Source of the DNA: Pseudomonas nitroreducens TX1
GTDB lineage: Bacteria; Pseudomonadota; Gammaproteobacteria; Pseudomonadales; Pseudomonadaceae
Assembly (NCBI RefSeq): GCF_000313755.1
Contig: NZ_AMZB01000101.1
Coordinates: forward strand, 1 to 64,000
Length of the DNA: 64,000 nt
Reading direction: 5' to 3'
The position numbers were made by a program, and so were the translations under genes. Positions 4,791 to 50,392 of the stretch are shown here, in pieces (the stretch's first letter is position 1; each line of letters opens with the position of its first letter). The notes under the pieces were generated by a model. It searched no databases and had not been told where the DNA came from. It saw only the letters and a list, made by a program, of their open reading frames with translations.

Positions 4791-5258
4791 ATGGACATCC
4801 GTAAAGTCAAGAAACTGATCGAACTGCTCGAAGAATCCGGTATCGACGAACTGGAGATCAAAGAGGGCGAAGAGTCCGTACGCATCAGCCGTCACAGCAA
4901 GACCGCCGCCCAGCCGATCTACGCTGCCGCCCCGGCCTACGCTCCGGCTCCGGCCGCAGCGCCGGTCGCTGCCGCTGCCGCTGCCGCCCCGGCCGCTGAA
5001 GCCGCTCCGGCTGCGCAGAACCTCGCCGGCGCCGTGCGCTCGCCGATGGTCGGCACCTTCTACCGCGCAGCCTCCCCGACCTCCGCCAACTTCGTCGAAG
5101 TCGGCCAGAGCGTGAAGAAAGGCGACATCCTCTGCATCGTCGAAGCCATGAAGATGATGAACCACATCGAGGCCGAGACCAGCGGCGTGATCGGCCAGAT
5201 CCTCGTGGAGAACGGCCAGCCGGTCGAGTTCGACCAGCCCCTGTTCACCATCGTTTAA
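4791..5258 (+). CDS. accB: Biotin carboxyl carrier protein of acetyl-CoA carboxylase
   Basis: A 155-residue carrier subunit of acetyl-CoA carboxylase, the first committed step of fatty-acid synthesis. The N-terminal [23 protein letters not shown] segment is typical, followed by an Ala/Pro linker (about residues 44-82) and the biotinyl domain. The biotinylated lysine is in EAMKMMN (K121). A ribosome-binding site (GGGAGAG) precedes the ATG. accC follows after 17 bases, so the two form the usual accBC operon and their products work as one carboxylation unit. Confidence 0.97.
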
Positions 5259-5275
5259 ACCGCGGGGAACCTGCG

Positions 5276-6625
5276 ATGTTGGAAAAAGTACTGATCGCCA
5301 ACCGCGGCGAAATCGCGCTGCGCATCCTGCGCGCGTGCAAGGAGCTGGGCATCAAGACAGTGGCCGTGCACTCGACCGCCGACCGCGAGCTGATGCACCT
5401 GTCGCTGGCCGACGAAGCGGTCTGCATCGGTCCGGCCCCGGCCGCGCAGTCCTACCTGCACATCCCGGCGATCATCGCCGCGGCCGAGGTCACCGGCGCC
5501 GTGGGTATCCACCCCGGCTACGGCTTCCTCGCCGAGAACGCCGACTTCGCCGAGCAGGTCGAGCGCTCGGGCTTCACCTTCATCGGCCCCAGCGCCGACG
5601 TCATCCGCCTGATGGGTGACAAGGTGTCGGCCAAGGACGCCATGAAGAAAGCCGGTGTGCCGACCGTGCCGGGCTCCGACGGCCCGCTGCCCGAAGACGA
5701 AGAGACCGCACTGGCGATCGCCCGCGAGGTCGGCTACCCGGTGATCATCAAGGCCGCCGGTGGCGGTGGTGGTCGCGGCATGCGCGTGGTGCACCACGAG
5801 GAAGACCTGATCAAGTCCGCCAAGCTGACCCGCACCGAAGCGGGCGCGGCCTTCGGCAACTCGATGGTCTACCTGGAGAAGTTCCTGACCAACCCGCGTC
5901 ACGTGGAAGTCCAGGTCCTCTCCGACGGCCAGGGCAACGCCATCCACCTGGGCGACCGCGACTGCTCCCTGCAGCGTCGTCACCAGAAGGTGCTGGAAGA
6001 AGCCCCAGCCCCCGGCATCGACGAGAAGGCCCGCGCCGAAGTGCTGGCCCGCTGCGTCCAGGCCTGCGTGGAAATCGGCTACCGTGGCGCCGGCACCTTC
6101 GAGTTCCTCTACGAGAACGGCCGCTTCTACTTCATCGAGATGAACACCCGCGTGCAGGTGGAGCATCCGGTGTCGGAGATGGTCACGGGTATCGACATCG
6201 TCAAGGAAATGCTCAGCATCGCCTCGGGCAACAAGCTGTCGATCCGCCAGGAAGACGTGGTCATCCGTGGCCATGCGCTGGAATGCCGGATCAACGCCGA
6301 AGACCCGAAGACCTTCATGCCCAGCCCCGGCAAGGTGAAGCACTTCCACGCACCGGGCGGCAACGGCGTGCGCGTGGATTCGCACCTGTACAGCGGCTAC
6401 GCCGTACCGCCGAACTACGACTCGCTGGTGGGCAAGATCATCACCTACGGCAAGGACCGCGATGAAGCCATGGCGCGCATGCGCAATGCGCTGGACGAGC
6501 TGATTGTCGACGGCATCAAGACCAACACCGAGCTGCACAAGGAGCTGGTCCGCGATAAAGAGTTCTGCAAGGGTGGCGTGAACATCCACTACCTGGAGAA
6601 GAAGCTGGGCATGGACAAGCACTGA
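5276..6625 (+). CDS. accC: Biotin carboxylase subunit of acetyl-CoA carboxylase
   Basis: A 449-residue ATP-grasp enzyme that carboxylates biotin on AccB using bicarbonate and ATP. It opens with [20 protein letters not shown] and contains the glycine-rich ATP loop [14 protein letters not shown] (about residue 159) and the family segment [16 protein letters not shown]. Length matches E. coli AccC. It lies 17 bases after accB and ends just before a strong hairpin at 6650-6679, which closes the accBC transcription unit. Confidence 0.98.
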
Positions 6626-6649
6626 GCCTGCCTGCTCCGCCTCGCTCCA

Positions 6650-6679
6650 TCACAAGGGCTGCCTCCGGGCGGCCCTTGT
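6650..6679 (+). terminator. Terminator-like hairpin after accC
   Basis: CACAAGGGC and GCCCTTGTG form a perfect 9-base stem around a GC-rich inner part, 24 bases after the accC stop. There is no long T tract (CTTTG follows), so it may be a weak intrinsic terminator or an RNA-stabilising stem. Confidence 0.6.
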
Positions 6680-6807
6680 GCTTTGCGGCCCCTGCACGCT
6701 GGCATGGCAGGGTGCCGTGCAGTAAGCTTGCCGCCTTTATCTGCGGGCCGCCCAGGCGGCCCGTTGTCTTTTCCAGCGCCATCCCAGCACGATCGAGGTA
6801 CCGCCCC

Positions 6808-7686
6808 ATGCCCTGGCTTCAAGTCCGACTCGCCATCACCCCGGATCAGGCGGAAACCTATGAAGATGCGCTGCTGGAAGTCGGCGCCGTCTCCGTGACC
6901 TTCATGGACGCCGAAGACCAGCCGATCTTCGAGCCGGACCTGGGCACCACCCCGCTGTGGAGCCACACCCACCTGCTCGCGCTGTTCGAGGCCGACACCG
7001 ACGAGACGGCGCTGACCGCCCACCTTTCGCTACTTACCGGCGGCGCACTGCCGGAACACCAGATCGAGCGTATCGAGGACCAGGACTGGGAACGCAGCTG
7101 GATGGACAACTTCAAGCCGATGCGCTTCGGTCGCCGCCTGTGGATCGTCCCCAGTTGGCACGAGGCTCCGGAGCCTGAGGCGGTGAACCTGCTGCTCGAC
7201 CCAGGCCTGGCGTTCGGCACCGGCACCCACCCGACCACCGCGCTGTGCCTGGAGTGGCTCGACGGCCAGGAGCTGGCCGGCCAACAGGTGCTGGATTTCG
7301 GCTGCGGCTCGGGCATCCTCGCCATCGCCGCGCTGCTGCTGGGCGCCGAACAGGCTGTCGGCACCGACATCGACCCGCAGGCGCTGGAAGCCTCTCGCGA
7401 CAATGCCTCGCGCAACGGCATCGACCCGGCGAAATTCCCCGTCTACCTGCCCGCCGATCTGCCCAAGGCACAGGCGGACGTCCTGGTGGCGAACATTCTG
7501 GCCGGTCCGCTGGTCACATTGGCAGAACAGCTCACCGGCCTGGTGAAATCCGGTGGCCTGCTGGCCCTCTCGGGCATCCTCGCCGAGCAGGCCGAGGAAG
7601 TTCGCGCCGCCTATGCCGACGCCTTCGATCTCGACCCGACCGCCGAGCGCGACGGCTGGATCCGCATCAGCGGCCGCCGCCGCTGA
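6808..7686 (+). CDS. prmA: Ribosomal protein L11 methyltransferase
   Basis: A 292-residue S-adenosylmethionine-dependent methyltransferase that trimethylates ribosomal protein L11. It starts [10 protein letters not shown], has the substrate-binding N-terminal domain, the linker with [21 protein letters not shown], and the methyltransferase motif [21 protein letters not shown], followed by [12 protein letters not shown] (motif IV region). The ATG at 6808 gives the normal PrmA N-terminus; the frame is open further upstream without family resemblance. It follows accBC after the 6650 hairpin. Confidence 0.97.
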
Positions 7687-7745
7687 TGCCCGCCGCACGG
7701 GGCTTGAGTTAGACTAACCGCCAGTTTTTTCCGCCGGACCGCCGC

Positions 7746-9365
7746 ATGAGCGACAGCTTCATCACACAGTGCCCCCATTGCCAGACCCGTTTCCGCGTCA
7801 ACGCGGCGCAACTGGGCGCGGCCAGCGGTGCTGTGCGCTGCGGAACCTGCCTGAAGGTGTTCAGCGCGCCGCAGAACATGGTGGGCGAGCCGTCCCAGGT
7901 TCCCGCACCGACTGTCAGGGCAGCACCGCCGGTCGAAGCCCCAGGACCTATCCCGAACCCCGAGCCGGTCGCGCCACCTGCTCCGCCGAAAGCTCCGCAG
8001 CCCGTCGCAGCGGCGCCGAGTCCCACGCCAGCCTTCACGACCTTCACCCCCGAAAGGCCAGCGGCACCCGCCACCCCCGGCACCGCCACCCTCGGCTGGC
8101 CGCTGGCGCCCCATGCGGCAAGGCATTCCAGCGATGTGGCGGAAAAACCCGCCGTCGTCGAACCCAAGGCGGAAGCGAAACCGGCCCCCGTGGTCGAACC
8201 TGCCCCGGCCACCACGGTGATCGCCCCCGCGGCAACCCTGACCAGCGAGCCGTCCAGGCCCGCTCCCGTGCCGTCGAAAAAAGACGAAACCCTGTGGATT
8301 CACGACGACCTCGACCTGGACAGCCTCAATCTCGACGAGGAACTGGCCAAGCTCGATGAATTCGAACTGTCCCAGGAGTTCCTCAGCATCGATCGCGCCC
8401 CGCGCCCCAGCGAGGCCCTGCAGACCCGTCAGGAAGAAAAGCGCGACCCGCATGACGAACGCTGGGCCGAAGCGCTGCTGGAAGATGAACAGAACGGCGC
8501 CAGCCGGGCATCCCGCCAGGAGCCCAGCCTCGGCCGACTGTCCGCCGACGAGCCCGAGGAGCCGCCCGCCAGCGCACGCCTGGTAGCCGACACGGCTCCC
8601 CAGCCCGAAGAGCCGGAGGACGAACCGGAAGACGAACCACGCATCGATCCAGCGCCCCGGCGCATGGAGCCCTTGCGGGTAGAGACCGACGAGGAAAAGC
8701 TTCCTGCCTTCAGCGCCCGCCGCGACGATGACGAACCCGAAGCGGACGAGGACCAGGACGAAGCTCCGCCGCTGGCCGACCCCCGCGGCGACAACCGCCG
8801 CGCCGAACCCGCCCTGCACGATGGCGGCCTGCACGACCTGAGCGACGAACCCCTGCAGCTCGACTGGCAGAAGCCCAAGCGCCGCTGGGGCCGCCGCCTG
8901 TTCTGGCTGCTGCTGGTATTGCTGGCCCTGGCCGGCCTCGCCGGCCAGTACATCGCCTATCACTTCGACGAACTGGCGCGCCAGGACCAGTACCGCCCCT
9001 GGTTCGCCCAGGCCTGCCCGGAGCTGGGCTGTACCCTGCCCTCCAAGGTCGATGTGGAGCAGATCCGCAGCAGCAACCTGGTGGTGCGCAGCCACCCGGA
9101 CTTCAGCGGCGCACTGGTGGTCGACGCGATCATCTACAACCGCGCCAACTTCTCCCAGCCTTTCCCGCTGCTGGAGATGCGCTTCGCCGACCTGAATGGC
9201 CAACTGATCGCCAGCCGTCGTTTCAAACCCAGCGAATACCTCTCGGGGGAGTTGGCCGGGCAGGACGAGATGCCGCCGCAGACGCCGATCCACATCTCCC
9301 TGGACATCCTCGATCCGGGTCCGAAGGCAGTGAACTACAGCCTGAGCTTCCACTCGCCGGAATGA
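7746..9365 (+). CDS. Zinc-ribbon and DUF3426 membrane protein
   Basis: A 539-residue protein of unknown function. The N-terminus is an MJ0042-type zinc ribbon with two CxxC pairs (CPHCQTRFRV at about residues 10-13 and CGTCLKVF at about 33-36). A long, low-complexity Pro/Ala- and acid-rich stretch runs from about residue 50 to 370, then one transmembrane helix (LFWLLLVLLALAGLAGQYI, about residues 385-403), then a C-terminal DUF3426 domain containing CPELGCTLP. The topology suggests a cytoplasmic zinc ribbon and a periplasmic C-terminal domain. The gene occupies the same prmA-dusB gap in P. aeruginosa. The middle part is likely disordered. Confidence 0.85.
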   Translation: MSDSFITQCPHCQTRFRVNAAQLGAASGAVRCGTCLKVFSAPQNMVGEPSQVPAPTVRAAPPVEAPGPIPNPEPVAPPAPPKAPQPVAAAPSPTPAFTTFTPERPAAPATPGTATLGWPLAPHAARHSSDVAEKPAVVEPKAEAKPAPVVEPAPATTVIAPAATLTSEPSRPAPVPSKKDETLWIHDDLDLDSLNLDEELAKLDEFELSQEFLSIDRAPRPSEALQTRQEEKRDPHDERWAEALLEDEQNGASRASRQEPSLGRLSADEPEEPPASARLVADTAPQPEEPEDEPEDEPRIDPAPRRMEPLRVETDEEKLPAFSARRDDDEPEADEDQDEAPPLADPRGDNRRAEPALHDGGLHDLSDEPLQLDWQKPKRRWGRRLFWLLLVLLALAGLAGQYIAYHFDELARQDQYRPWFAQACPELGCTLPSKVDVEQIRSSNLVVRSHPDFSGALVVDAIIYNRANFSQPFPLLEMRFADLNGQLIASRRFKPSEYLSGELAGQDEMPPQTPIHISLDILDPGPKAVNYSLSFHSPE

Positions 9366-29379: not shown

Positions 29380-29407
29380 CCGGACCGGTGTGCAATGCCC
29401 GGTCCGG
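29380..29407 (+). terminator. Hairpin after the small lipoprotein
   Basis: CCGGACCGG-N10-CCGGTCCGG forms a perfect 9-base stem 16 bases after the stop codon. It is followed by CTTCTGCC, not a T tract. Confidence 0.55.
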
Positions 29408-29709
29408 CTTCTGCCATTGCCATAAATCAAACTTTTCCCCATCCCCCGCCCCGCTGCCCACCGATTGAGATTCGTCTTATTCGGCTACCTGAACGCGCGC
29501 TGAACAATGTGCCCACTGATACGGCAAAGCCTTACGCGGCGGCCGATCCGGCGTGGCGCGACAGTTCGCGGCCATGCCTCCCCAACGCAACTTCCAGTGA
29601 AAGCAGGACCCGATCCGGAGTACTCCGATCCCCCGCCAGGACAGGCTCACACAGGCGCTGGAAATCCGCCCCGCATCGCCACTCGGCGACGGGTGCAAGG
29701 AGGTTTGCA
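29408..29709. other. Non-coding leader of the autotransporter gene
   Basis: A 302-base gap with an AT-richer patch near 29417-29480 that could hold a promoter; no clear -35/-10 pair was identified. AGGAGG lies 9 bases before the next ATG. The frame is open through the gap but the encoded residues (basic and Pro-rich) look non-coding. Confidence 0.5.
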
Positions 29710-32388
29710 ATGCGCTTTACCAAGACCCTTCTGGCCACGCACATCGCGCTGGCCATCGCCCTGGCGGGGCAAGTGGGCACAGCCAGTGCCACCTGCACCA
29801 CCAGCGGTGACGGCAAGACATACACCTGCGACGAGACCCTGTGGTGGGGGCTCGATAGCGCTGTGGAGAGCGTCCACGTCGATACCGGCAACGCACGCGG
29901 CAGCATGGGCCCCATGGCAGGCTTCGCCATGTACGGCAACGGCTCGAACTGGAACCTGAAGGAAGCGACGCTGATGACCGGCACCGTCTCGGGCCTGCTC
30001 AGCGGTTACAAGGCCGATGCCATCCAGGCCAACATCGGCACGAACAACATTTCCATCGACAAGCTGACCATCGTCACCAAGGGCTCCTCGGCCGACGGCA
30101 TCAACGTCACCGAGAACGCCTACAACTCCACGGTGACCATCGGCGACAACGCCAGCATCACGACTTCCGGCATGGGCGTGCGCGCCAATACCTCGAAGAA
30201 TGGCGGCACCAACCGCATCCTGCTAGGTAAAGGCGCGGTGATCACTACCACCGGCAGCGGCAGCAATGGCAGCGATGGCAACGGCTACGCAGTCTATGCC
30301 GGCAACCGGGACAGCGAAGCACTGTTGTACAAGGGTGATGCCGAAGTGCGCATCGACGATGGCAGCACCATCAGCACGACGGGTTCTTCCGCCCACGCCG
30401 TGTTCGCCAACCGTGGCGGCGAGATCCACCTGGGCAGCACCGACATCACCACCGGCAGAAACAACGCCTACGGCATCTATGCGCAGACCCTGGAGGACTT
30501 CAATGGCATGCGCGGCGGCAAGGTGCATCTGTATGGCGACACCAAGGTCACCGTGATCGACGGTACCCGCGCCATGTCGGCCAATGGCGCGGACTCCAGC
30601 ATCGTCTCGGAGAATGCTGCGATCTACGTGCTGGACAGCAGCGCCGCAGAAGATCTCGCCAACCGCAAGGGCATCGCCCTGTACGCCGAGAACCAGGGCA
30701 AGCTGGACCTGAAGATGGCTGCCGGCTCCTACCTCAACGGCACCACCAGCACCGCCACCGACGGGGTGATCGACCTCGCCATGGACGGGGCCTCCAGCCA
30801 GTGGTTCATGACCGGCAACTCCAACCTGACCAACCTCACGCTCACCGATGGCGCCCAACTGGTCTATGACCGCCACGACGAACACGGCGCCTACACCTAC
30901 AAGACGCTGACCGTTGATGGCGACTTCACCGGCGGCGGTCACCTGGTGATGAATACCTACCTGGGCGACGACACGTCCGAGACCGACAAGCTCGCCATCA
31001 GCGGCAGCACTTCGGGCGATACGCGCGTCACCGTCAACAACACCGACGGCCCCGGTGCCGAAACCCTGGAAGGCATCCAGATGATCACCGTGGGCGGCAC
31101 CTCCGCTGGCGAGTTCAAGTCCGACCGGGTCACCGAAGGCGGCTACGAGTATGTGCTGCGTCGCGGCGGCAGCTTCGTTGGCTCCACCGGCTCGAACAGC
31201 GACTGGTACCTGACCTCGTACAAACCGACCGATCCCGATCCGGAGGACCCACCACCGGTCGATCCGCCACCGGTTGACCCGCCACCGGTCGATCCGCCGC
31301 CGGTTGACCCGCCGCCGGTCGATCCGCCACCGGTCGATCCGACTCCGGAAGAGCCGGGGCCCGTCGATCCGGGCCCGACCGACCCGGTGCCGGAAAAGCC
31401 CACGCCCAGCGACAAGGACCGCGTGCGTCAGCCCGAAGGTGGCAGCTACACCGCCAACATCGCGGCGGCCAACACCATGTTCCTGCATCGCCTGCATGAC
31501 CGGACCGGCAACCTGACCTACGTCGACCCGGATACCGGCAAGGAAGTTACCTCGATGCTGTGGATGCGCAACGTCGACGGCTCGACCCGCTGGGAAGACA
31601 GCACCGGGCAGCTGAAGACCGAGTCCAACCGCTATGTGCTGCAACTGGGCAGCGACGTGTACCGCAAGGAAACCGACAACGGTGACTGGGTATTCGGCGT
31701 GATGGCCGGCTACGCCAACGGCAACTCCACCACCAAGTCGCGCATCACCGGCTACCGCTCGCGCGGCGAAATCGATGGCTACAGCCTGGGCGTGTATGGC
31801 ACCTGGTACGAAAACAAGGAGGACGAAAACGGCGCCTATGTCGACAGCTGGGTTCTCTACAACGAGTTCGACGCCGACGTGAAGGGCGATCAACTGGCCA
31901 AGGAAAGCTACGACCTCAAGGGCATCACCGCCTCCATCGAGGCCGGCAAGACCTTCGAAGTGGCCAAGACCGAGAGCGCCAGCTACTACGTGCAGCCGCA
32001 GGCGCAAGTGGTCTACATGGGCGTGAAGGCTGACAGCCACCGCGAGGCCAACGGCACCAAGGTCACCGGCAAGGGCGACGGCAACGTCATGACCCGCCTG
32101 GGCGCCCGCGCCGCCGTGCGCAGCAACCAGGCCGGCGGCTTCGCCAACACCTACGGCGTGGAACCCTACGTGGAAACCAACTGGATCCACAACTCCAAGG
32201 ACTTCGGCGCGAAGATGGGCAGCAGCAAGTTCGAGATGGACGGCGCCAGCGACATCTTCGAAGTGAAGCTCGGCGCCACCAGCAAGGTGAACAGCCGGGT
32301 CAACGTCTGGGGTGAAGTGGGCCACCAGTTCGGCGACAACGGCTACCGGGACCAGGCAGTGACCGTAGGGTTCAAGGTCAACTTCTGA
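29710..32388 (+). CDS. Autotransporter with C-terminal beta-barrel
   Basis: An 892-residue type Va autotransporter. A signal peptide (about residues 1-26, ending GTASA) leads to a passenger (about 27-500) rich in Gly, Ser, Thr, Asn and Asp with repeating STISTTGSSAHAVFAN-like stretches, as in pertactin-type beta-helices. Then come a Pro/Asp linker with six DPPPV units (residues 513-542) and a beta-barrel domain (about 570-892) that opens SMLWMRNVDGSTRWEDS and ends in Phe (VTVGFKVNF), the outer-membrane assembly signal. The passenger function is unknown; no protease or lipase motif was seen. It is flanked by terminators on both sides and is not part of the neighbouring operons. No copy is known to me at this place in PAO1. 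Confidence 0.9.
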   Translation: MRFTKTLLATHIALAIALAGQVGTASATCTTSGDGKTYTCDETLWWGLDSAVESVHVDTGNARGSMGPMAGFAMYGNGSNWNLKEATLMTGTVSGLLSGYKADAIQANIGTNNISIDKLTIVTKGSSADGINVTENAYNSTVTIGDNASITTSGMGVRANTSKNGGTNRILLGKGAVITTTGSGSNGSDGNGYAVYAGNRDSEALLYKGDAEVRIDDGSTISTTGSSAHAVFANRGGEIHLGSTDITTGRNNAYGIYAQTLEDFNGMRGGKVHLYGDTKVTVIDGTRAMSANGADSSIVSENAAIYVLDSSAAEDLANRKGIALYAENQGKLDLKMAAGSYLNGTTSTATDGVIDLAMDGASSQWFMTGNSNLTNLTLTDGAQLVYDRHDEHGAYTYKTLTVDGDFTGGGHLVMNTYLGDDTSETDKLAISGSTSGDTRVTVNNTDGPGAETLEGIQMITVGGTSAGEFKSDRVTEGGYEYVLRRGGSFVGSTGSNSDWYLTSYKPTDPDPEDPPPVDPPPVDPPPVDPPPVDPPPVDPPPVDPTPEEPGPVDPGPTDPVPEKPTPSDKDRVRQPEGGSYTANIAAANTMFLHRLHDRTGNLTYVDPDTGKEVTSMLWMRNVDGSTRWEDSTGQLKTESNRYVLQLGSDVYRKETDNGDWVFGVMAGYANGNSTTKSRITGYRSRGEIDGYSLGVYGTWYENKEDENGAYVDSWVLYNEFDADVKGDQLAKESYDLKGITASIEAGKTFEVAKTESASYYVQPQAQVVYMGVKADSHREANGTKVTGKGDGNVMTRLGARAAVRSNQAGGFANTYGVEPYVETNWIHNSKDFGAKMGSSKFEMDGASDIFEVKLGATSKVNSRVNVWGEVGHQFGDNGYRDQAVTVGFKVNF
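31246..31335 (+). repeat. Six 15-base tandem repeats encoding DPPPV
   Basis: Six consecutive 15-base units, each GA(C/T)CC(A/G)CC(A/G)CCGGT(C/T), encode Asp-Pro-Pro-Pro-Val in the autotransporter linker. Variation is confined to synonymous third positions. The next unit breaks to DPTPE. Copy number may vary between strains. Confidence 0.9.
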
Positions 32389-42774: not shown

Positions 42775-43308
42775 ATGAACCAGGCACAACTGAGCGACGT
42801 CCAGACCCTGCGCGAACGAGCGCGCCGCAACATAGAAGAAGGCGCCGTGACCGAGGGCTACCAGGCCGACCGGCAGACCGTACTGCGGCTGCTCAACGAG
42901 GCGCTGGCCACCGAACTGGTCTGCTACCTGCGCTACAAGCGCCACTACTTCATGGCCACCGGCCTGAAGGCGAGCGTGGCCGCCGCCGAATTTCTCGAAC
43001 ACGCCGGCCAGGAACTGCAGCACGCCGACCAGCTGGCCGAGCGCATCATGCAGCTGGGCGGTGAGCCGGACTTCAACCCAAACGGGCTGACCCAGCGCTC
43101 CCATGCCGAATACGTGGCCGGCGCCAACCTGCGCGAAATGGTCACTGAGAACCTGGTCGCCGAGCGCATCGCCATCGACAGCTACCGCGAGATCATCGTC
43201 TACCTGGGCGATGCCGATCCGACGACGCGCCGGCTGTTCGAGGAGATCCTCGCCCAGGAAGAAGAGCACGCCGACGACATGGCGGACATCCTGCAAGACC
43301 TGAAGTAA
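42775..43308 (+). CDS. Ferritin-like (bacterioferritin/Dps-type) protein
   Basis: A 177-residue four-helix protein with the ferritin diiron pattern: Glu in LLNEALATELVCYLRYKRHYF, ExxH in EFLEHAGQELQHADQLAERI, and a second ExxH near the C-terminus in EEILAQEEEHADDMADIL. It matches the PAO1 gene PA4880, annotated as a probable bacterioferritin. No heme-ligand Met is evident in the usual place, so non-heme iron binding is the safer statement. It is divergent from asmA. A hairpin follows at 43327. Confidence 0.88.
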   Translation: MNQAQLSDVQTLRERARRNIEEGAVTEGYQADRQTVLRLLNEALATELVCYLRYKRHYFMATGLKASVAAAEFLEHAGQELQHADQLAERIMQLGGEPDFNPNGLTQRSHAEYVAGANLREMVTENLVAERIAIDSYREIIVYLGDADPTTRRLFEEILAQEEEHADDMADILQDLK

Positions 43309-43350: not shown

Positions 43351-43682
43351 GTGCTGTTGGCGCCGGCGCCGGAGGCCACCGTGGGAGCGGAAACAACCGC
43401 GATGCTTTCCTCCGGCGGCGGGCCTGTCCCGGACGGAGCCCCCTCCTACGAATCCCTGGGACATCCGTGCACCCCATCAGACTCCTGGGCCTGGTGGCCG
43501 CCAACCCTTATCCCAGAGCCTTTCCTCGCCAGCGCCTCACAAAGTATCTATAAATACGATACTAACAATCACAGCGATATCGCCCATCGAAGGCATTGAT
43601 ACAAGTCATTATTAAAAAATAAATACCTGATTTATAAGTATTTTTATAACAATCATCGGCATCGATAGCGACTATCTTCCGG
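43351..43682. other. Gene-free region, GC-rich then strongly AT-rich
   Basis: The first 170 bases have normal composition with no convincing gene. From about 43540 to 43660 the sequence turns AT-rich (runs such as TTATTAAAAAATAAATA and TATTTTTATAA), very unlike the rest of the window. It lies directly upstream of the first repeat-protein gene and probably holds its promoter and regulatory sites; H-NS-type (MvaT/MvaU) binding is possible. Confidence 0.6.
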
Positions 43683-43700
43683 CATCGTTTTCCAATCGAT
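43683..43700 (+). promoter_or_regulatory. Shared palindromic element, copy 1, upstream of the 18-residue repeat protein
   Basis: CATCGTTTTCCAATCGAT matches copy 2 at 44780 in 16 of 18 bases. It is an imperfect palindrome (ATCGTTTT / AATCGAT). Its end is 61 bases before the start codon of the downstream gene, against 63 for copy 2, so it is placed like a core promoter or operator element. Confidence 0.65.
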
Positions 43701-43761: not shown

Positions 43762-44529
43762 ATGAAACGCACCCTCGTACTTGGCTTTGCCCTCTCCGTA
43801 CTTGCTGCCAATGCCGCTTTCGCCGGCTCCCAGCAGGACTCCCCTGTAATCAATGCCAGCCAGACCCAGGTTCTGGTTCAGGAAGGCGCCGAACGCAGCC
43901 TGGGTCAACAGCAGAAACTGCTGGACGCGGCCAAGGCCCGTATCGCCGAAAACGGTTCCAGCCAGTCGGTCGATCGCCTGATCCAGAAAATGAACGTGGC
44001 CGAGAATGGCTCCAGCCAGACCGTCGAACGCCTCCACAAGCAACTGGGCGTGGCTGAAAACGGTTCGAGCCAAACCATCGACCGGCTGCACAGCGAGATG
44101 AGCGTTGCAGAAAACGGTTCGAGCCAGTCGGTTGACCGCCTGCATCAGGCAATGAGCGTCGCCGAGAATGGCTCCAGCCAGACCGTCGACCGCCTGCACA
44201 AGCAACTGGGCGTAGCTGAAAACGGCTCGAGCCAAACCATCGACCGGCTGCACAGCGAGATGAGCGTTGCAGAAAACGGTTCGAGCCAGTCGGTTGACCG
44301 CCTGCATCAGGCAATGAGCGTCGCCGAGAATGGCTCCAGCCAGACCGTCGACCGCCTGCACAAGCAACTGGGCGTAGCTGAAAACGGCTCGAGCAAAACC
44401 ATCGACCGTCTGCACAGCGACATGAGCGTTGCCGAAAACGGTTCCGAGCACACCGTCGACCAACTGCACAGCAACATGGTGGCCGAATCCGGTGGCGATA
44501 CCGTCTTCGATGCCCACCTGAAGGCATGA
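43762..44529 (+). CDS. Secreted tandem-repeat protein with 18-residue units
   Basis: A 255-residue exported protein of unknown function. The signal peptide MKRTLVLGFALSVLAANAAFA precedes a mature part that is almost entirely ten tandem units of 18 residues (residues 61-239) of the form VAENGSSQTVDRLHKQLG. The last helix part cycles through three versions (HKQLG, HSEMS, HQAMS), giving a higher-order 54-residue repeat. The tail ends NMVAESGGDTVFDAHLKA, shared with the paralog at 44861. No enzyme motif, cysteine or anchor is present. The 18-residue period equals five alpha-helical turns, so an extended helical rod is possible, though the NGS in every unit may break helices. It has its own promoter region and terminator. 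Confidence 0.85.
   Translation: MKRTLVLGFALSVLAANAAFAGSQQDSPVINASQTQVLVQEGAERSLGQQQKLLDAAKARIAENGSSQSVDRLIQKMNVAENGSSQTVERLHKQLGVAENGSSQTIDRLHSEMSVAENGSSQSVDRLHQAMSVAENGSSQTVDRLHKQLGVAENGSSQTIDRLHSEMSVAENGSSQSVDRLHQAMSVAENGSSQTVDRLHKQLGVAENGSSKTIDRLHSDMSVAENGSEHTVDQLHSNMVAESGGDTVFDAHLKA
43942..44478 (+). repeat. Ten in-frame 54-base tandem repeats with a 162-base higher order
   Basis: Units start at 43942, 43996, 44050 and so on every 54 bases. Units 2-4, 5-7 and 8-10 are nearly identical to one another at the DNA level as 162-base blocks, which points to recent duplication of a three-unit block. Unit 1 and unit 10 are the most diverged. Confidence 0.92.
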
Positions 44530-44560
44530 AGCTCCAGGCAGTACACCGCAAGGTGAGAGA

Positions 44561-44583
44561 AAAGCCCGGTCCCGCCGGGCTTT
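44561..44583 (+). terminator. Terminator after the 18-residue repeat protein
   Basis: AAAGCCCGG-TCCCG-CCGGGCTTT is a perfect 9-base stem followed by CTTA. The same AAAGCCCGG stem recurs at 45387 after the paralog. Confidence 0.82.
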
Positions 44584-44779
44584 CTTATCGCTCGAAACCC
44601 GCGCAACCCCGCCATCGATATCAGGCCAGCCGCGATTTGTAACGGCATCTTGCCTGAAAGCTGCTCAAGCATGCTTGAAAACGCCGCCCTAGAGCGGTTT
44701 TCGTCGTTCCATCATTGACGGCGATAGTTGAAATTAGCCGGCTAAATAATCGACAACACTGATGCTCTGTATTACCCAG

Positions 44780-44797
44780 CATCGTTTTTAAATCGAT
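44780..44797 (+). promoter_or_regulatory. Shared palindromic element, copy 2, upstream of the 21-residue repeat protein
   Basis: CATCGTTTTTAAATCGAT, 16 of 18 bases identical to copy 1. The inner 17 bases form an imperfect palindrome, ATCGTTTT-T-AAATCGAT, with seven of eight arm positions paired. TTATCC follows, close to where a -10 might lie. Confidence 0.65.
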
Positions 44798-44860
44798 TTA
44801 TCCGAAGGGAAAATAACCCTGTAGCCAAAACATTCCGCCCCCCTTTCGGAGCCACACCCC

Positions 44861-45355
44861 ATGAAAACCAAGATCGCCCTCAGCCTTGCACTGACTTCCC
44901 TGATGACCGCCAGCGCCGTCTTCGCCGCCCCGGCCATCCTCAACAACGGCCCGCGCAGCACCGAGCAGCTCCAGCAACAGAGCGCCGAAGCCCGCGTTGC
45001 CGCCAACGGCGCCGAGCGCACCATCGATCGCCTGCACAAGCAGATGGGTGAAGGTCGCGTCGCCGATAACGGTTCCGAACGCACCATCGACCGCCTGCAC
45101 AAGCAAATGGACGAGGCCCGCGTCGCCGACAACGGTTCCGAACGCACCATTGACCGCCTGCACAAGCAAATGGACGAGGCCCGCGTCGCCGACAACGGCT
45201 CCGAGCGCACCATCGACCGCCTGCACAAGCAGATGGATGACGTCCGCGTAGCCGAGAACGGCTCCGAGCACACCATCGACAAGCTGCACGGCAACATGGT
45301 CGCCGAGTCCGGTGGTGACACCGTGTTCGACGCCCACCTCAAGCGTGTTTCCTGA
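44861..45355 (+). CDS. Secreted tandem-repeat protein with 21-residue units
   Basis: A 164-residue exported paralog of the preceding protein. The signal peptide MKTKIALSLALTSLMTASAVFA is followed by four complete 21-residue units of the form RVADNGSERTIDRLHKQMDEA (from residue 45) and a final shorter unit, then the tail NMVAESGGDTVFDAHLKRVS. The core VAxNGSExTIDRLH is common to both proteins but the unit is three residues longer, i.e. exactly three heptads. The units are more charged (Arg, Asp, Glu, Lys) than in the paralog. Function unknown. It is preceded by the same palindromic element and followed by its own terminator. Confidence 0.85.
   Translation: MKTKIALSLALTSLMTASAVFAAPAILNNGPRSTEQLQQQSAEARVAANGAERTIDRLHKQMGEGRVADNGSERTIDRLHKQMDEARVADNGSERTIDRLHKQMDEARVADNGSERTIDRLHKQMDDVRVAENGSEHTIDKLHGNMVAESGGDTVFDAHLKRVS
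44993..45304 (+). repeat. In-frame 63-base tandem repeats
   Basis: Units begin at 44993, 45056, 45119, 45182 and 45245; the last is truncated to 18 codons before the tail. Units 2-4 are nearly identical in DNA, indicating recent expansion. Confidence 0.9.
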
Positions 45356-45386: not shown

Positions 45387-45410
45387 AAAGCCCGGCATCT
45401 GCCGGGCTTT
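45387..45410. terminator. Terminator between the repeat protein and the convergent MFS gene
   Basis: AAAGCCCGGC-ATCT-GCCGGGCTTT is a perfect 10-base stem followed by CTCATTT, and preceded by A-rich sequence on the other side, so it can serve both converging genes. Confidence 0.85.
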
Positions 45411-50271: not shown

Positions 50272-50296
50272 GCCAGCCCCTTCGCACCCTGCCCGA

Positions 50297-50392
50297 CCTG
50301 TAGAAGCGAGCTTGCTCGCGAAACCTGTAGAAGCGAGCTTGCTCGCGAACAAATTCTGCAGTGAAGCGGTTCGCGAGCTTGCTCGCTGCTGG
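50297..50392. repeat. REP cluster: tandem 27-base duplication plus an inverted copy
   Basis: CTGTAGAAGCGAGCTTGCTC occurs twice in direct repeat at 27-base distance (50298 and 50325), both of the GTAGGAGCGAGC family with the first GG changed to A. An inverted partial copy (GGTTCGCGAGCTTGCTCGC) follows at 50368-50386. The direct duplication is unlike the inverted pairs elsewhere in the window. Confidence 0.88.

Follow-up and report, generated by a model that had tools for sequence, protein, structure and literature searches.

A window of 64,000 nucleotides from Pseudomonas nitroreducens TX1 (contig NZ_AMZB01000101.1, positions 1 to 64,000) carries two adjacent rightward-transcribed open reading frames (ORFs), ORF1 and ORF2, which code for proteins with putative Sec-type leaders, arrays of tandem repeats built on a shared core, and related C-terminal tails; both close with NMVAESGGDTVFDAHLK plus one to three residues, and neither contains Cys or Trp. 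They are best explained as paralogous members of a single Pseudomonadaceae family of exported tandem-repeat proteins (PA4881/PA4623 type), and a MexT-type site or core lies upstream of each. The ORF1 core, mostly VAENGSSQ[TS][VI]DRLH, recurs nine times at a distance of 18 amino acids (aa) to give 10 units, and Tandem Repeats Finder (TRF) reports a 54-bp period (9.9 copies, score 480) as well as a three-unit 162-bp period (94% matches, score 874). In ORF2 there are four core-to-core distances of 21 aa and hence five cores, the first of which is VAANGAERT, and the TRF period is 63 bp (4.7 copies, 87% matches, score 422). The original prediction, made from the sequence alone, was of a pair of ORFs with leaders, a common tail, and no cysteine, one repeating every 18 residues (ten units) and the other every 21 (four and a half units), and all of this is borne out by re-reading of the sequence, by the core spacing, and by TRF. 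Terminator-like sites number seven in the stretch of the window examined (2.4 expected), with one after each of ORF1 and ORF2, and because each gene also has its own upstream operator-like site, both look monocistronic.

Table. Features of the repeat gene pair and its upstream neighbor (window coordinates).
Feature	Position	Strand	Remarks
Dps-like neighbor, PA4880 type	42775..43308	+	Synteny anchor outside the repeat family; phmmer match to PDB 8w1d 'Dps-like protein', 327 bits, residues 2-176; Pfam Ferritin
MexT-type (LysR/nod-box) operator-like site of ORF1, contains ATCA-N7-CGAT	43652..43675	+	5' edge 110 bp before start; one mismatch to 24-bp consensus; conserved in orthologs
Second conserved promoter element, ORF1 copy ATCGTTTTCCAATCGAT	43684..43700	+	Alignment of 10 promoters
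ORF1, exported 18-aa-unit repeat protein, PA4881 type	43762..44529	+	255 aa; adjoins PA4880-type gene
ORF1 leader, Sec type, MKRTLVLGFALSVLAANAAFA with G following	43762..43824	+	Judged by eye from sequence
ORF1 array, ten 18-aa units, partly as 162-bp three-unit blocks	43942..44481	+	
ORF1 C-terminal tail NMVAESGGDTVFDAHLKA	44473..44526	+	
ORF1 terminator-like hairpin, 3' of gene	44568..44581	+	
Printed MexT core ATCA-N7-CGAT, upstream of ORF2	44711..44725	+	5' edge 150 bp before start; 4 mismatches to 24-bp consensus
Second conserved promoter element, ORF2 copy ATCGTTTTTAAATCGAT	44781..44797	+	Alignment of 9 promoters
ORF2, exported 21-aa-unit repeat protein	44861..45355	+	164 aa
ORF2 leader, Sec type, MKTKIALSLALTSLMTASAVFA with AP following	44861..44926	+	Judged by eye from sequence
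ORF2 array, five motif cores, 21-aa spacing	44996..45292	+	
ORF2 C-terminal tail NMVAESGGDTVFDAHLKRVS	45293..45352	+	
ORF2 terminator-like hairpin, 3' of gene	45387..45410	+	

Relatives are common in the genus and extend beyond it. With ORF2 as the query there are matches in 23 of 25 genus genomes (its own included) and in 34 of 298 family-level genomes, with weak matches in two further genera, but among 369 class-level genomes only its own is matched. A relative with 15-aa units is a more productive query, with matches in 145 of the 298 family genomes, spread over 8 of 19 genera, and among them in the genus genome G006 missed by ORF2; G004 is the sole genus genome matched by neither query. 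Named relatives at six loci belong to P. nicosulfuronedens, P. nitroreducens, P. pseudonitroreducens, and three Pseudomonas strains without a species name, and the same units recur in relatives' genomes. Among the Pfam and NCBIfam matches listed for the window proteins none reaches the curated cutoff, and a search of PDB sequences with ORF2 returned nine matches at chance level (best E value, 0.14), so the description of an exported repeat family without an assigned function stands.

The core is well conserved and the spacing is not. Of the 23 genus genomes that contain window-type matches, 22 (all but G037) supplied the 40 genes that were read, and the 215 core-to-core spacings in these genes are 18 aa (127), 22 aa (38), 21 aa (35), 23 aa (10), 20 aa (3), 26 aa (1), and 17 aa (1); members of the 18-aa class have 6 to 15 units. 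Among other relatives the spacing is 13, 14, 15, 16, 24, 25, or 26 aa, with a few larger values where a unit was perhaps missed. Spacing also shifts within single proteins, as in those at loci L054 (22, 22, 18, 18, 18, and 18 aa) and L056 (20, 22, 22, 22, 23, 22, and 23 aa), and the 18- versus 21-aa contrast of ORF1 and ORF2 is one example of the freedom of this family in unit length. The pattern used to pick 255 units fixes G, S/T/A, T/S/L, a hydrophobic place, D/E, R/K/Q, and L/H, so that independent evidence comes solely from the remaining places, which hold V in 225, A in 251, N in 244, H in 244, and M or L in 253 units. None of the 40 genes codes for Cys, and four code for one Trp each, located in the N-terminal extension that results from a longer start. 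At L054 (positions 5108-7908, genome G008), three repeat paralogs lie in a row, one of them with fifteen near-identical 18-aa units and another switching from 22 to 18 aa.

In seven between-species comparisons, the ratio of nonsynonymous to synonymous substitution rates (dN/dS) of the repeat genes is 0.12 to 0.18, which together with the recurrence of the units in relatives' genomes indicates that ORF1 and ORF2 are real, constrained coding sequences. The near-identical 162-bp blocks of ORF1 are a sign of recent amplification and would be expected if the arrays were neutral repeat expansions with no function, but the dN/dS values, the conserved operator described below, and the presence of the family across nearly the whole genus make that explanation highly improbable.

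We take the full MexT consensus to be the 24-bp sequence ATCA-N5-GTCGAT-N4-ACYAT, shortened forms of which have been published. Within the window, three sites have three or fewer mismatches to this sequence, compared with 0.8 expected, and 5 of 100 shuffles reach three. Throughout the 6.69-Mb genome, five sites, that of ORF1 among them, have at most one mismatch, and a reversed-pattern control has none; a relaxed pattern, also with at most one mismatch, finds 51 sites in nine other genus genomes, compared with two for the reversed controls. The printed cores are ATCA(N)7CGAT, derived by footprinting and cited in PMC11144800, and the looser ATYA(N7)YGAT of PMC11432991. The exact strict core is present within 200 bp upstream of 36 of the 40 genes, the window's two included, and the reversed pattern is present at none of them; the exceptions are L048, L059, L065, and L053, the last with only 40 bp of upstream sequence. 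Its distance to the start is 107 to 113 bp for ORF1-type genes (72 bp where an earlier ATG is taken as the start; two genes have a second site) and 133 to 152 bp for ORF2-type genes, and in alignments the sites fall within promoters that are themselves conserved and have another element in common. This second element (ATCGTTTT..AATCGAT), common to the ORF1 and ORF2 promoters and downstream of the operator-like site, is possibly a second LysR site.

The operator is also shared by more distant members. Thirty distant loci, which are the best matches of the 15-aa-unit query and come mostly from one genus, have a site that departs from the 24-bp consensus at no more than one position in 21 cases and at no more than two in 26, and the reversed pattern in none. 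With the printed cores, 38 distant entries give 19 strict, 28 loose, and no reversed matches (L086 duplicates L160 and L087 duplicates L183; L085 and L089 were dropped as their ORFs were not recognized, and L083 was left out). The MexT-type core recurs upstream of relatives with 13- to 15-aa units. As a specificity control, PtrA-like exported proteins of the same genus were taken from 31 loci, five of which lack a recognized PtrA-like ORF, and none of the 26 scored has a MexT-type site, even with the looser core. What the sequences themselves show is that the genes code for apparent export leaders and a conserved core in repeated form, that they are under purifying selection, and that, in relatives whose repeat length has changed, a site matching the MexT consensus stays at a near-constant distance upstream.

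Gene order relates ORF1 to a known P. aeruginosa gene. Genome G013 was placed in the P. aeruginosa group on the strength of the PA4882 leader, since the leader printed in PMC6085387 equals that of the G013 gene save for two residues, and its gene order is a Dps-like gene, a 113-aa repeat protein, and the gene with the PA4882-like leader. PA4880 is described as a Dps-like protein (PMC11150526), and because a Dps-like PA4880-type gene also precedes ORF1, ORF1 is a PA4881-type gene. The comparison uses the G013 copy rather than the PAO1 protein sequence; this counterpart has the same core as ORF1 and a printed operator core at -107, but it is a single gene with four cores spaced by 23 aa and without the ESGGDTVFDAHLK tail, whereas there are two genes in the window, one with 18-aa and the other with 21-aa units. 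A second G013 repeat gene adjoins genes that by eye look like cdrB and cdrA, names given to PA4624 and PA4625 (PMC2847200), and from this gene order and the numbering it is likely to be PA4623. It codes for a repeat protein with the same core as the window pair, but is 129 aa long with spacings of 26, 23, and 23 aa, and its operator has two mismatches to the long consensus and lacks the printed core.

PA4881 is already in print as a tandem-repeat protein of unknown function under MexT and PA2206 (PMC3557286 and PMC12607905), so the family is uncharacterized rather than undescribed, contrary to the original prediction. Deletion of mexT changes the transcripts of PA4881, PA4623, and PA4882 by log2 values of -6.5, -5.8, and -2.0, respectively (PMC12607905; the first two in its Table 1). 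PA2206, a LysR regulator required in the response to oxidative stress, raises PA4881 expression and binds the PA4881 promoter (PMC3557286), and values of -10.68 and -9.13 are given for parS and parR mutants, respectively (PMC3848899). The link to MexT or PA2206 is restated in PMC4521719, PMC10848761, and PMC8466533, and the passages on PA4881 in this literature assign it no function. The repeat family is thus real, constrained, and widespread, but the passages cited here treat it only as a regulated gene without a known function, and it is neither ordinary nor undescribed.

We propose that ORF1 and ORF2 act as outputs of the redox/electrophile-stress regulon controlled by MexT. For P. aeruginosa, others have shown that transcript levels of PA4881 and PA4623 depend on MexT (PMC12607905). 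In P. nitroreducens, MexT would bind the operator-like sites, and the mature proteins would be retained in the periplasm after Sec export. Each unit could form a short helix beginning at the Ser after NG, in a flexible chain with no fixed solenoid, and the selected property may be the many copies of a short polar or amphipathic motif on a Cys-free polymer. Such a polymer would shield or loosely bind periplasmic clients or envelope surfaces in electrophile or oxidative stress, and unit number could change through recombination between near-identical repeats with function kept. If the operator and its distance persist even as unit length ranges from 13 to ~26 residues and as His, Met, and Lys are gained and lost, then function would rest on motif multiplicity and bulk composition and not on a fold. 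We put the probability of the whole chain (induction by MexT, export through Sec, and a periplasmic polymer of flexible helical repeats with a shielding or binding role during stress) at about 0.4; MexT control taken by itself is probable, by an approximate estimate. Tentatively, exported repeat polymers of this type may form a class present throughout the Pseudomonadaceae that serves as a conserved and very strongly induced output of the MexT regulon, and they would then represent a novel sort of protective polymer that acts in the periplasm and is induced by stress.

Several observations weigh against this proposal. The ORF2 site is a short core only, with 4 mismatches to the long consensus and at -150; three relatives with 22- to 26-aa spacing (L079, L080, and L082) have the loose core only, with 4 to 5 mismatches; upstream of L084 there is not even a loose core; and related promoters are non-independent observations. 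In G013, the PA4881-type repeat gene lies behind only one of 11 sites, and mexEF-oprN was not recognized by eye in nine stretches around the other ten, which leaves the assumed consensus without validation on its classical target. A PA4881 mutant is reported to be no more sensitive to peroxide in a disk assay (PMC3557286), and hence no protective phenotype is known. The unit helix of ORF1 is only weakly amphipathic, with a moment reached by 8 to 19% of shuffles, and the moment of a 13-aa unit is reached by 46% of shuffles.

AlphaFold2 models were made from shallow alignments of seven close sequences per protein. For ORF1 the mean predicted local distance difference test score (pLDDT) is 39.7 and the predicted template modeling score (pTM) is 0.18, with approximately one short helix and a break per unit at low confidence, and for ORF2 these values are 51.7 and 0.17, with a single long helix at residues 50-133; shallow alignments alone can give low confidence, so a low pLDDT is no proof of disorder. 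The original prediction held that repeat lengths of 18 and 21 residues are both compatible with helices packed continuously, an idea that corresponds to a coiled coil or a solenoid spacer in which unit length sets the packing, and both models are indeed largely helical. However, neither is confident, and spacings of 13, 14, 15, 16, 18, and 20 to 26 residues occur among relatives and vary inside single proteins, corresponding on an ideal helix to a face rotation of -160 to +160 degrees per unit. This claim is therefore not sustained, a fixed helical register is rejected because unit spacing varies between relatives, and a continuous coiled coil or solenoid is unlikely.

The units might instead coat a membrane leaflet as amphipathic helices, by analogy with the exchangeable apolipoproteins and synuclein. 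They are candidates for Ser-capped helices with hydrophobic residues at i, i+3, and i+7 and with NG breaks, and the unit of the G013 PA4881 counterpart has a hydrophobic moment of 0.46, which only 0.3% of shuffles reach. Binding to the envelope surface as the main role nevertheless seems unlikely, as mean hydrophobicity is low (-0.09 to 0.24), the moment of the ORF1 unit is modest (0.27 to 0.34), and the 13-aa unit has no significant moment. In mode of action, the family can be compared with hydrophilins, which have Gly above 6% and a mean hydropathy below -1, and with late embryogenesis abundant (LEA)-like stress proteins. The family is likewise repetitive and Cys-free, with 5.4 to 11.0% Gly in seven genus members and 7.6% in both window proteins, but the grand average of hydropathicity (GRAVY) is -0.64 for ORF1 and -0.94 for ORF2, and thus not below -1, placing them outside the hydrophilin definition.

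The recurring His and Met of the unit (DRLHxxM) could bind copper or a similar metal in a periplasmic buffer, as claimed for PtrA, which is described as a copper-inducible periplasmic copper storage protein involved in copper tolerance (PMC8872213). The abundant His noted above is accompanied by Met in 191 of the 255 units, neither place being fixed by the picking pattern, and there is weak similarity to NCBIfam NF041599 (co-regulatory protein PtrA N-terminal domain), which scores ORF1 at 9.8 and ORF2 at 19.1 bits against a cutoff of 31. In G013, the proteins of PA4881 and PA4623 type reach 23.5 and 24.4 bits, a relative with 24- to 25-aa spacing scores 35.2 bits, and one relative with 15-aa and two with 13-aa units score 72.9, 97.5, and 89.9 bits. 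However, fragments of about one unit give 13.3 to 22.6 bits in seven of nine cases, and the two window N-terminal fragments give nothing, so that the high scores are sums over repeats; moreover, a hidden Markov model (HMM) of the unit ranks PtrA-like proteins no higher than shuffles. A short motif after the leader is possibly common to PtrA and the repeat family, but the PtrA-like proteins show no tandem repeats in their N-terminal 70 residues, whereas the window proteins are tandem repeats. PtrA membership is rejected on the sub-cutoff scores, the HMM result, and the lack of MexT-type sites at all 26 PtrA-like promoters, and this last point also counts against a metal buffer. Leu replaces Met in 62 of 255 units, and the mature parts of L087 and L086 (13- and 15-aa-unit relatives) have no Met, Cys, or Lys and 0 and 1 His, which argues against shared metal or thiol chemistry; metal binding as a shared function is rejected on the composition of these two relatives, and a metal buffer is quite unlikely overall.

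The position of the G013 paralog next to genes for a CdrB-like transporter and a CdrA-like adhesin (by eye) would suit a role in the extracellular matrix or in adhesion. In the window, however, no CdrA/CdrB-like genes adjoin the pair, and no anchor or dedicated secretion signal is seen in its proteins, and such a role is very unlikely.

MexT has been studied extensively as a regulator of MexEF-OprN efflux and of quorum sensing, and PA4881 heads one published MexT-regulon table, yet is given no function in the passages concerned (PMC12607905). A defined family, with a likely second member beside cdrAB and an operator shared across the Pseudomonadaceae, provides non-pathogenic species in which function is testable, and the operator is a possible marker of MexT-type control where the regulon is unmapped.

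MexT-type sites also lie before other genes. In the window genome, a perfect site at G000:C119:62549-62572 (L073) lies before an ArsR-like and then an MFS-like gene (both by eye), presumably the PA4354-PA4355 arrangement, and in G013 (L125) an ArsR-like gene, also recognized by eye, follows a perfect site. PA4354 appears in the ParRS table of PMC3848899. Also in G013 (L123), sites at 1240 and 4662, 3.4 kb apart, each precede a small protein with an apparent export leader.

ORF1 matches phrog_35043 (unknown function; E value, 1.7e-12) and phrog_5274 (E value, 8.9e-9) over short stretches of repetitive protein, which may reflect repeat inflation or a phage-borne relative. A phage search with ORF2 only gave no match, and plasmid searches gave none with ORF2 or L086 and one with L087, to a 'hypothetical protein' of a P. 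asturiensis plasmid. The label 'phage infection protein', in use for such proteins in other Pseudomonas, was never tied to a sequence and is rejected. Rhizoctonia raises expression of AL066_13550 ('Phage infection protein') 32-fold in P. fluorescens In5, alongside that of azoreductase, pirin, and glutathionyl-hydroquinone reductase (PMC5557065); AL066_13550 may be a member of the repeat family and, like a 2P24 table, is a lead only. Elsewhere in the window, positions 31246-31371 form a tandem repeat with 15-, 30-, and 45-bp periods within a long ORF (29395-32388), and positions 50296-50349 contain two perfect copies of a 27-bp unit.

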